From: Candidatus Fermentibacterota bacterium
Lineage (GTDB): Bacteria > Fermentibacterota > Fermentibacteria > Fermentibacterales > JCC-6
Reading direction: 5' to 3'
Length of the DNA stretch: 44,622 nucleotides
Assembly: GCA_030592645.1 (NCBI GenBank)
Contig: JAUVIR010000026.1
Span: 1 to 44,622 of the forward strand
Position numbers and translations under genes: made by a program. The notes below the pieces were generated by a model. That model searched no databases and was not told where the DNA came from. It was given only the letters and a program-made list of their open reading frames with translations. Shown piece after piece: positions 6,038 through 8,737 of this stretch. The number at the start of each line of letters is the position of its first letter. Position 1 is the stretch's first letter.

Positions 6038-6065
6038 TTTACATTAGTGGAATTAATCATAGAAT
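6038..6065 (+). promoter_or_regulatory. Sigma70-like promoter of the riboswitch transcript
   Basis: TTTACA (6038-6043) and TAGAAT (6060-6065) are separated by 16 bases, each matching 5 of 6 consensus positions. A start about 7 bases downstream (near 6072) would place the first transcribed bases exactly at the 5' edge of the riboswitch region, which fits well. Confidence 0.5.
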
Positions 6066-6072
6066 ATTAGCA

Positions 6073-6176
6073 GGCGGTAGAGCACCGCCACGCAAACCGG
6101 AAGGAATTCCGGGACGCAAAGCTACGGGTCCGACACCGCTTCTGGGGAAAGCGGAAGGACAGCCGGGTTACCGTTT
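6073..6176 (+). ncRNA. Cyclic-di-GMP class I (GEMM) riboswitch, first of two tandem aptamers
   Basis: The core matches the GEMM-I consensus. GCAAACC at 6092-6098 is followed by the P2 hairpin CCGGAA-GGAA-TTCCGG (6097-6112) capped by a GNRA tetraloop. Then come GGACGCAAAGC, a P3-type arm closed by GGTCC and GGAC with an inner stem CCGCTT/AAGCGG, and the closing CCGGGTTACC. The base before CAAACC (6092) is G, the identity linked to c-di-GMP rather than cGAMP recognition in this family. A 6-bp hairpin, GGCGGT (6073-6078) with ACCGCC (6084-6089), sits at the 5' edge. Its left arm can alternatively pair with TACCG at 6169-6173 to form P1. This would let ligand binding choose between two folds (inference). 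Confidence 0.92.
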
Positions 6177-6266
6177 GACTCAATGCAAACCGGAGGAGAC
6201 TCCGGGACGCAAAGCCACGGGTCCGAAGCCCGGGAAACCGGGAAGGACAGCCGGGTTACCAGACGT
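6177..6266 (+). ncRNA. Cyclic-di-GMP class I (GEMM) riboswitch, second tandem aptamer
   Basis: This is a second complete GEMM-I core, about 93 bases after the first. It has GCAAACC at 6185-6191, P2 CCGGAG-GAGA-CTCCGG (6190-6205) with a different GNRA loop, GGACGCAAAGCC, a P3 arm with inner stem CCCGG-GAAA-CCGGG, and GGACAGCCGGGTTACC. Compared with copy one, the closing pair of P2 has changed from A-T to G-C on both sides. This is compensatory variation that supports a functional stem. The base before CAAACC (6185) is again G. It ends about 37 bases before the start codon of the gene at 6304, with a strong GAGGAGG site between, so translation control or anti-termination are both possible. Confidence 0.92.
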
Positions 6267-6303
6267 CTGCGCGGGGAAACCCATGCGGATTGAGGAGGTG
6301 CTC

Positions 6304-6579
6304 ATGATGAGGTTGATACCATTAATACTGGTAGCGCTTCTACCGTCGGTATTGCTGGCCAGCGTAACCGTATCCTCCTGCCCTGCCGATGTTGACAGTT
6401 TTGTCAGCATCGCCAGAGAGGCAATGGTGGATGGGAACTACGTTACCGCTTTTGCGATGTACGATTGTGCTCTCCGAAGAGATCCCTACTCTTTAGAAGC
6501 CCTTGCGGGCCGTCTTATGGCCATGGCTTTTATGGTGGAGTGCAATTCTTCAACGCCGATCCTGGTTACTTCACGCTGA
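6304..6579 (+). CDS. Small exported protein with one TPR-like repeat, under tandem c-di-GMP riboswitch control
   Basis: A 91-residue protein starting MMRLIPLILVALL, a typical Sec signal peptide with cleavage expected near residue 18-20 (LLASV). The mature part is about 70 residues and holds one helix-turn-helix TPR-like unit (GNYVTAFAMYDCALRRDPYSLEAL in two halves, then GRLMAMAFM). It has an ideal site, GAGGAGG at 6292-6298, 5 bases before the ATG; the longer reading frame that begins at 6175 lies inside the riboswitch and is not real. No family is recognised. It stands alone between the riboswitch and a hairpin, facing a convergent methyltransferase gene. It may be a complete small protein or a shortened copy of a longer TPR protein; the tail after MAFM has no clear similarity to anything I know. 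Confidence 0.65.
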   Translation: MMRLIPLILVALLPSVLLASVTVSSCPADVDSFVSIAREAMVDGNYVTAFAMYDCALRRDPYSLEALAGRLMAMAFMVECNSSTPILVTSR

Positions 6580-6601
6580 CCGAAGCGTACCGCGGGTGCA
6601 A

Positions 6602-6624
6602 GGGGCGGGCTTTTTGCCCGTCCC
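6602..6624 (+). terminator. Strong G+C-rich hairpin after the riboswitch-controlled gene
   Basis: GGGGCGGGC (6602-6610) pairs over 9 positions (one G-T wobble) with GCCCGTCCC (6616-6624) across a TTTTT loop, 22 bases after the stop at 6579. No T-tract follows on either strand, so intrinsic termination is uncertain. It separates two convergent genes and may protect mRNA 3' ends. Confidence 0.45.
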
Positions 6625-6638
6625 GCCGGAACAGCCCG

Positions 6639-7462: not shown

Positions 7463-8737
7463 TTACCTTATTACCACACATCTCCGTGTCTGTACGGCGC
7501 AGCCGGTCTGCAGACGATAGATATAAACGCCGGCGTGCAAATCTTCGGCATAGAATTCAACAGAGTGATGTCCTCCCTGGAGTTCTCCATCGACAAGAGT
7601 TGCAACAAGCCTGCCTGAAAGGTCGAAAACCTTAAGAGTTGCGTGCCCCGGTTCGCTCAGCTCGAAGCGCAATGACGTTGATGTGGCAAAAGGATTCGGG
7701 AATGCCGGCTCGAGTAATAAGCCGGCTTTAAATACTGAACCTTCAGCGATACCGGTCATGGCTTCGCCAAGGAAGAGGAACTCCTCGATGAACCGGCTAA
7801 GATTCATGCTATGCCCTACACCAGTCAGGCTCTGGAATTCATGATCTATTCCAAGATCTGTAAGGGTATCCGCATAGCTGCAGTTGGATTCGTAACAGCC
7901 TATCCATCCATCGTTTGTGCCGCAATCAAAAAAAATGTCGAGGTCGATAGGCAGAGACATCTGCTTTACCATATGGGCGGGATAGAACAGCTCCCACAGG
8001 GCATATACGGAATCGATTACTAATCCATTCTCGTCTAGAATGAAATCCACAGAATCGGGAGCACTCAGATTGGGCGAAAAAGCTCCACCATAGAGAAACA
8101 AACCATCCGTGTAGGACCCGTTACCCCAGTCGTAGGTGTATGGAGGCTCAGATTCGGGGCATTCCTCCAGTACTGCAGGCAGGAATAAAGGCATTGCAAC
8201 GCAAATATCCTGAAAACCGGCATGTGAAGCTACCGCTTTGTAACGGTCTGTATGCACAAGAGCGATTTGCATCGAACCTGCACCTCCCATCGAATGTCCG
8301 GCGATACTTCGATATTCCGGATCTGAAATGGCGCAGAAACTGCTTTCAACAAAGTCGACTAAATCGAATACTACATAGTCCTCGTAGTCTCCATACAGTT
8401 CTGAGTTAACCCACATACTGCCGTCGTACGGTTCGCACCACCCGTTCGGCTTAACCACAATCACAGGCTGGATCTGCCCGGATGAGATCAGACTGTCCAG
8501 TGAGGTTTTTGTGTAGGGTATATATGAAGATTGTGTCCCGCCCCAGCCGTGCAGCCAGTATATCACTGGATAATCGATGGTTCCGCCAGGGTTGTAACCT
8601 TCGGGCAGGTAGAGCACCACATCTTTCTCCACACCCAGTGACGGAGGAACAAATGTTGTGTCTACCCAGGTTCCACCAGCAAGTGCGATATCAGGAATAA
8701 TGAACAGCAATCCGAGAAAACAAACGAAGAATTTCAT
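7463..8737 (-). CDS. Secreted esterase-D-family hydrolase with C-terminal T9SS sorting domain
   Basis: A 424-residue exported alpha/beta hydrolase. A signal peptide covers residues 1-20 (ends IALAGG). The esterase D/feruloyl esterase-like domain carries HGWGG for the oxyanion hole, the nucleophile elbow GHSMGG (S149), DCGTNDGW for the acid and GVGHSM for the catalytic His. Residues from about 344 form a type IX secretion (Por) sorting domain, with the PNPF, LKVFDLSGRLV and AGVYIYRL landmarks and a basic tail. It should be exported by Sec, then moved across the outer membrane by T9SS. Ester substrates on polysaccharides are likely but unproven. A strong AGGAGGGG site precedes the ATG. It lies 63 bp after serS. 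Confidence 0.88.
   Translation of the reverse strand: MKFFVCFLGLLFIIPDIALAGGTWVDTTFVPPSLGVEKDVVLYLPEGYNPGGTIDYPVIYWLHGWGGTQSSYIPYTKTSLDSLISSGQIQPVIVVKPNGWCEPYDGSMWVNSELYGDYEDYVVFDLVDFVESSFCAISDPEYRSIAGHSMGGAGSMQIALVHTDRYKAVASHAGFQDICVAMPLFLPAVLEECPESEPPYTYDWGNGSYTDGLFLYGGAFSPNLSAPDSVDFILDENGLVIDSVYALWELFYPAHMVKQMSLPIDLDIFFDCGTNDGWIGCYESNCSYADTLTDLGIDHEFQSLTGVGHSMNLSRFIEEFLFLGEAMTGIAEGSVFKAGLLLEPAFPNPFATSTSLRFELSEPGHATLKVFDLSGRLVATLVDGELQGGHHSVEFYAEDLHAGVYIYRLQTGCAVQTRRCVVIR

Follow-up and report, generated by a model that had tools for sequence, protein, structure and literature searches.

The window, that is, the whole stretch of DNA that was analysed (44,622 bases, a single contig of a 2.58-Mb draft genome), harbors two c-di-GMP-I-type aptamers in tandem, both lacking the G that reads the ligand in this class, directly upstream of a small gene that accompanies them in the related genomes. 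The complementarity between GAGCACC, at the 5' end of the leader, and GGUGCUC, in the Shine-Dalgarno (SD) region of the gene, suggests one translational platform common to both aptamers. Our preferred reading is thus a translational riboswitch with two c-di-GMP-I-type aptamers and one common expression platform, which we hold with roughly even confidence. The features of the element are collected in Table 1.

Table 1. Features of the tandem element and of its downstream gene, in window coordinates
Feature	Positions	Strand	Remarks
Sigma-70-like promoter (predicted), TTTACA-16-TAGAAT	6038..6065	+	Predicted 5' end at ~6072-6073
5'-terminal hairpin H, GGCGGU-AGAGC-ACCGCC	6073..6089	+	179/180 pair cells standard over 30 loci
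Putative anti-SD strand GAGCACC(G)CC, loop and 3' arm of H	6080..6089	+	207/210 cells paired in the 7-mer
Aptamer 1 (c-di-GMP-I type)	6090..6172	+	Triple C20-A47-C92: C6091, A47 = 6118, C92 = 6171
P1 5' strand of aptamer 2, CGUUUG	6172..6177	+	First base is C93 of aptamer 1 in 29/29 doublets; 159/174 cells paired
Aptamer 2 (c-di-GMP-I type)	6178..6259	+	Triple U20-A47-C92: U6184, A47 = 6211, C92 = 6259
P1 3' strand of aptamer 2, CAGACG	6260..6265	+	From pairing cells and leader fold
Hairpin P4, between aptamer 2 and SD	6266..6289	+	At least 5 pairs in 29/29 doublets (fold)
SD region GGAGGTGCTC	6294..6303	+	Its GGTGCTC pairs with GAGCACC
Small gene; product of ~90 aa, apparently exported and TPR-like	6307..6579	+	In-frame ATG also at 6304

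The two aptamers and the start of the transcript

The first-pass annotation had proposed two complete c-di-GMP-I-type aptamers in tandem, to be checked with Infernal and the Rfam family RF01051. With cmscan both copies were retrieved in a head-to-tail arrangement: the first spans 6081-6175 (54.5 bits, E 4.7e-8), the second 6176-6263 (63.4 bits, E 3.3e-10), each above the gathering score of 35, and the pair is kept in relatives. The structural details given in that annotation also agree with the sequence: the GCAAACC cores begin at 6092 and 6185, with an offset of 93 bases; P2 is capped by GNRA loops (GGAA in copy 1 and GAGA in copy 2); and the compensatory change in P2 between the copies is represented by one pair at the loop end, A-U versus G-C (CCGGAA/TTCCGG and CCGGAG/CTCCGG, respectively). 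The leader folds better than 200/200 shuffled sequences (z -4.25). Probing the whole genome with RF01051 did not retrieve any element beyond the two at 6081-6263. A further weak Rfam match at the E-value threshold (SorX, 15.2 bits, minus strand) was taken as due to chance.

The two copies differ in their closing helix. No canonical P1 was found for aptamer 1, nor any upstream strand able to form one, and the predicted P1 of aptamer 2 is the one short helix lying between both pockets in 29/29 doublets. In its simplest register the cells counted in Table 1 give a score for this helix that is reached by 800/2000 strand shuffles; covariation neither proves nor refutes it.

As to the 5' end, the same annotation had placed it exactly at the first aptamer on the basis of a predicted promoter. 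A promoter-like site is indeed present, and a TTTAC or TTGAC box was seen by eye at the matching place in the upstream stretches of relatives; the promoter scan alone is weak, since shuffled sequences give 0.6 such sites on average. The exact position did not hold: the predicted 5' end coincides with the foot of a separate hairpin (H), whereas the aptamer core begins at 6092.

Distribution of the element

The element was found in 30 of the 42 genomes of the order, that of the window included, as 29 doublets and one single aptamer; by rank, it occurs in 15/19 genomes of the genus, in 14/17 of the rest of the family and in 1/6 beyond the family. The order-wide RF01051 search was run with stricter filters, by which weak matches may be lost, so that the absence from 12 genomes is not absolute; it is supported by the matching absence of the downstream gene. 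Indeed, all 30 loci have, directly downstream of the element, an ORF (87-91 codons) whose product has a hydrophobic N-terminus and a stretch resembling TPRs, and a profile of its product gave strong matches (E < 1e-28) in 31 of the 42 genomes, i.e., the 30 with the RNA and one more (G034), where no RNA element was retrieved and the contig (5083 bases) ends at the gene start. The other 11 genomes yielded five weak matches within longer frames and six none; they include four (G001, G005, G007, and G020) given as 94-98% complete.

The flanking ORFs are only partly common to the loci: one downstream group brings together 12 g5 loci, two upstream groups comprise 12 loci (from three genera) and 10 loci (from the genus of the window), and the window's own flanking ORFs fall in none of the 14 groups listed. 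The unit of RNA and gene is thus found in more than one chromosomal context.

A pattern search of genome contigs matched 119 stretches, 80 of which were examined. At least three are real members (two from Ca. Aegiribacteria, which NCBI assigns to the FCB group, and one from Ca. Sabulitectum), 75 failed a loose motif test, and two more passed it and look like chance matches; given the 80 of 119 covered, this search does not show absence elsewhere.

The single aptamer (G011, locus L037, 372-518) has the 5' hairpin and its 2-nt spacer, followed by an aptamer whose 3' end is that of copy 2; a natural deletion between both copies or an effect of assembly may explain this arrangement.

A candidate expression platform shared by both aptamers

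In all 29 doublets C93 of aptamer 1 is also the first base of the predicted P1 of aptamer 2, so that a terminator would have no space between them. As neither a terminator nor an SD fits there, the two aptamers would share one platform; the anatomy of the region, with two homologous aptamers in direct contact and a single SD facing a single complementary strand, is that of tandem aptamers on a single platform. The first-pass annotation, correct on the two aptamers, had missed both this likely platform (the 5' hairpin against the SD), which matters for the question of whether both sites work independently, and the dedicated gene downstream.

Hairpin H occupies the place of the missing P1, its foot lying 2 nt from G21 in 29/30 loci and 3 nt in the remaining one (L021, fold of the 5' segment). 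Changes on both sides of its pairing are found in 6 cells at two positions, and 115/2000 strand shuffles score as high. Within its loop, mostly of 4-6 nt, GAGC is nearly invariant though unpaired in H, in contrast to the adjacent loop base, which is variable or absent.

At the other end of the leader, GGTGCTC is invariant in 30/30 loci, while the bases between the SD and the start codon vary. Across the 2.58-Mb genome the whole GGAGGTGCTC is present just 6 times, and at the other 5 sites the nearby start codons open at most 21 codons; it is thus not a general SD habit of this organism. GAGCACC is the reverse complement of GGTGCTC, and two further pairs follow after a G-A mismatch. In 30/30 loci the 10-nt SD region finds its best duplex partner in hairpin H, and the substitutions in the anti-SD 7-mer keep the pairing via G-U in 29/30 (L024 needs another register). 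No compensatory changes were found in the resulting helix (P0) over the 30 loci, and 2000/2000 strand shuffles reach the same score; the SD side being invariant, no proof by covariation is possible for P0. When single genomes were considered (8 loci), 4 to 672 of 1000 shuffled leaders equalled the observed complementarity to the SD.

According to RNAfold, the P0 state (GAGCACC/GGUGCUC) is the energy minimum in 21/30 loci and not in 9/30, and it is lower than a state with H formed and the SD forced open in 30/30, the median difference being 6.75 kcal/mol. The probability of P0 is below 0.5 in 7/30 loci; in the window it is 0.47, versus 0.53 for H, for an RNA ending at 6318. When a little more of the coding sequence is included, the minimum free energy structure of the leader is the P0 fold, with both aptamers in canonical form. 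The SD core is mostly paired in these predictions whichever hairpin forms (unpaired probability 0.06 to 0.48), so that H alone does not clearly free it. A second switch helix, between GGCGGU and ACCGUU of aptamer 1, which would bury C92, was dropped because it would form a pseudoknot with P0 and the energies computed for it have no meaning.

We can depict the following scenario, in which the ligand probably switches the gene ON. In its absence, GAGCACC would pair with GGUGCUC, and P0 would close a junction around both aptamers and hide the SD (OFF). Binding to aptamer 1 would stabilize H, stacked where P1 is missing; P0 would then open, and translation could start (ON). If H replaces P1 in the ligand-bound aptamer 1, the ligand should favor H over P0 and expose the SD. 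The P1 of aptamer 2 lies between the pockets, and the occupancy of one could help that of the other; a steep response from two sites is plausible.

The same device might also work with the opposite sign: the ligand-folded aptamers would bring the ends of the leader together, favor P0 and turn translation OFF. P0 does close a junction holding both folded aptamers, in the very state predicted as the minimum in 21/30 loci, and PMC9262584, in the part consulted, cites a paper (Genes Cells 2018) on a c-di-GMP riboswitch that masks a distant ribosome site and so represses translation. Both predicted folds keep the aptamers intact and do not by themselves tell which state the ligand favors, which we count against our own scenario. 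Repression would, however, leave aptamer 1 without a helix at the place of P1, yet H is found there, with the 2-nt spacer, in 29/30 loci; for this reason we consider the OFF sign somewhat unlikely.

The base at position 20 and the nature of the ligand

In the c-di-GMP-I structure as described in the consulted part of PMC3764141, J1-2 has G20 as its conserved base, which immediately precedes G21-C22 of GCAAA, with C22 and A23 in P2; the pocket is completed by A47, A48, and C92, and G14-C93 tops P1. In the Vc2 numbering adopted here, the DISCRIMINATING base, just before GCAAACC, is position 20. Copy 1 has C there and copy 2 has U, and A47 and C92 are kept in both. This contradicts the statement of the first-pass annotation that both copies retain the c-di-GMP-discriminating G, as well as the specificity that was argued from it (position 20 is C6091 and U6184); we think that the G regarded as kept was G21, the G of GCAAACC. 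We therefore read the element as a variant of the known tandem c-di-GMP-I riboswitch, with the RF01051 score and two of the three ligand contacts (A47 and C92) present and the third (G20) absent. The A20 of the c-AMP-GMP type (GEMM-Ib) is likewise absent from the two copies.

Position 20 separates c-di-GMP (G) from c-AMP-GMP (A) sensing, according to the sections of PMC9481103 consulted. The excerpts of PMC4744006 at hand report that its mutation in Vc2 lowers the affinity ~30,000-fold, so that c-di-GMP binding by the aptamers of the window may be poor or even absent; the same excerpts report that mutation of the equivalent base in Vc1 did not fully eliminate binding. In the part of PMC9262584 consulted, the equivalent base is a selectivity factor and not a hard filter.

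Concerning the signals that the cell could offer, the genome yielded 18 GGDEF matches, 15 of which over the cut-off, and the motif was read in these 15. The substrate-binding motif was recognized in 12, with Asp in 11 and Asn in one at the base-selecting position, and was not found in the other three. We take this position to correspond to the Ser of the cGAMP-making GacA, and none of the 12 readable motifs has Ser; no enzyme of the cGAMP type was thus seen among them, and c-di-GMP is the likely available signal. S347D constructs are listed in the portion of PMC6456294 consulted. The ligand most likely is c-di-GMP, for which the two copies would have a lower affinity or selectivity than an aptamer with G20.

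Position 20 was also read in 46 aptamers outside the clade's tandem, 42 of which have G and 4 have A. These were 40 recognized by motif (36 G and 4 A) and six read by eye (all G), from a sample of 49 loci in which the motif caught aptamers in 38 and missed 11; one locus (L043) repeats another (L004), and four (L039, L040, L041, and L047) were left unread. A T in L038 (at 2821) was a chance match and was left out of the count. One of the aptamers read by eye (L232) has G at position 20, with C instead of G21 as the next base. The element at 2039 of L045 (G093) has A20, of the c-AMP-GMP type, and the other elements read in that genome have G20. The sample also includes one locus (L012) from a genome of the window's own genus, G017; this third RF01051 element, at 1501-1585 on a contig of 10,949 bases (C105), is single and has G20, and might be either a second switch or a contamination.

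Within the clade, A47 and C92 are unchanged in 59/59 aptamers, and the variation is confined to the first base of the triple 20-47-92 (Table 2).

Table 2. Triples 20-47-92 in the 29 doublets
Doublets	Copy 1	Copy 2
Genus of the window (14)	CAC 7, UAC 6, AAC 1; GAC 0/14	UAC 14/14, with differing flanks
Outside the genus (15)	GAC 14, AAC 1	CAC 11, GAC 3, AAC 1

G20 is therefore absent from both copies in 14/14 doublets of the genus, and GAC/GAC doublets are found in the most distant relative (G037), in G021 (genus g4), and in one g5 genome (G035). The simplest reading of this pattern is that G20 would have been lost first in copy 2 and then, within the genus of the window, in copy 1. The 29 doublets appear to record how the ligand-reading base was lost copy by copy. 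As the intermediate stages persist in living relatives, the way in which riboswitch specificity evolves can be tested directly.

Two Rfam variant families were compared with these triples. In the Rfam alignments RF03168 (c-di-GMP-I-UAU) has U20-A47-U92 and RF03167 (c-di-GMP-I-GGC) has G20-G47-C92; their names appear to be the triple 20-47-92, and on that scheme the copies of the window are CAC and UAC. The likeness to RF01051 (GEMM-I) lies in the P2/P3 scaffold, the GNRA tetraloop, A47, C92, and scores over the cut-off for both copies; the differences are C or U in place of G20 and, in copy 1, the 5' hairpin in place of a canonical P1. Window copy 2 shares U20 and A47 with RF03168, and by E-value this model ranks first within the clan for either copy, displacing RF01051; however, the scores (59.0 and 46.4 bits) stay below its cut-off of 65.9, and C92 is kept where that family has U92. 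As for RF03167, one copy each of three loci (L018, L024, and L006) passes its cut-off of 59, whereas all 59 aptamers have A47 and not G47, and in no search of the window did this model rank first within the clan.

These data bear on a further scenario, in which the ligand has changed in the window's genus, CAC and UAC being an additional specificity variant of the c-di-GMP-I fold like UAU and GGC. In its favor are the role of position 20 in separating c-di-GMP from c-AMP-GMP sensing (PMC9481103, as far as consulted), the U of copy 2 in 14/14 doublets with differing flanks, a copy 1 that never has G, and RF03168 as the top model by E-value. On the other hand, a single genus shows C, U, or A in copy 1, as would be expected from a relaxed constraint and not from one new base-reader; the cut-off of RF03168 is missed while that of RF01051 is reached, C92 is kept, and the GGDEFs read have Asp or Asn and none the Ser of the known cGAMP maker. 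A changed ligand is therefore unlikely.

We regard as rather doubtful a more elaborate reading, i.e., a clade-specific composite riboswitch whose base would have changed stepwise (from GAC/GAC to GAC/CAC to CAC or UAC/UAC) so as to read different or wider cyclic dinucleotides, with the pockets capping both ends of one helix and the 5'-terminal hairpin both replacing the P1 of aptamer 1 and carrying the anti-SD strand.

The loss of the ligand-reading base in both copies, with the scaffold retained, might also mean that the genus of the window has lost ligand sensing or keeps only a vestige of it, and that the aptamers are mainly structural, holding the 5' hairpin and the SD in place. A vestigial pocket should lose its other ligand contacts too, and A47 and C92 are unchanged in 59/59 aptamers, so that we judge this improbable.

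Comparison with known tandem riboswitches

Tandem c-di-GMP-I riboswitches are well documented: the consulted sections of PMC9481103 count 347 doublets and 12 triplets, and the triple Bc3-5 of Bacillus thuringiensis is described in the part of PMC4759541 available to us. Like these, the doublet of the window has same-class aptamers in a row before one gene. In the known cases each unit has its own platform: in Table 1 of PMC9481103, as we read it, c-di-GMP-I tandems stand under multiple platforms, and the part of PMC12452182 consulted gives them as one aptamer and one platform each; the doublet of the window, in contrast, would have one common translational platform. In this respect it resembles the tandem glycine riboswitch, with two homologous adjoining aptamers and one platform (PMC9481103, in part), although the aptamer fold of the latter is unrelated to c-di-GMP-I and the likeness is anatomical only.

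That the doublet is an ordinary, pseudo-cooperative pair of independent riboswitches, which is how the consulted parts of both PMC9481103 and PMC12452182 usually read c-di-GMP-I tandems, is very improbable, as no terminator or SD lies between the copies and C93 of copy 1 is the first P1 base of copy 2 in 29/29 doublets.

Our search of the literature, which covered few subscription papers and is thus weak evidence of novelty, retrieved no account of this doublet, of CAC/UAC triples, or of riboswitches in Aegiribacteria or Fermentibacteria. Since c-di-GMP-I tandems have so far been explained as independent units, a common platform, if true, would offer a natural system for asking why two aptamers are better than one.

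The downstream gene and its surroundings

The protein encoded downstream is apparently exported and TPR-like. Probing Pfam gave weak TPR matches in up to 8 of the 10 members tried and none for the window's own protein. The AlphaFold2 model of the latter (mean pLDDT 79.9, pTM 0.58) shows one helix at the N-terminus and three more spanning residues 29-80, with block means of 95 to 88 from residue 31. In this genome, with its 15 GGDEF matches over the cut-off, no gene other than the one for this orphan exported protein was found downstream of such an element.

In one relative (G008, contig C60) a second copy of the gene lies near the contig end, preceded by the tail of an aptamer 2 (L251, 1-79); this genome may carry two units or represent mixed strains. 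A GC-rich hairpin with little or no U run follows the gene in the window (6598-6630) and, by eye, in several of seven relatives' loci, and is a possible end of the unit. Further downstream, the minus strand at 7463-8737 encodes an esterase-like secreted protein, whose C-terminus resembles, by eye, a sorting domain.
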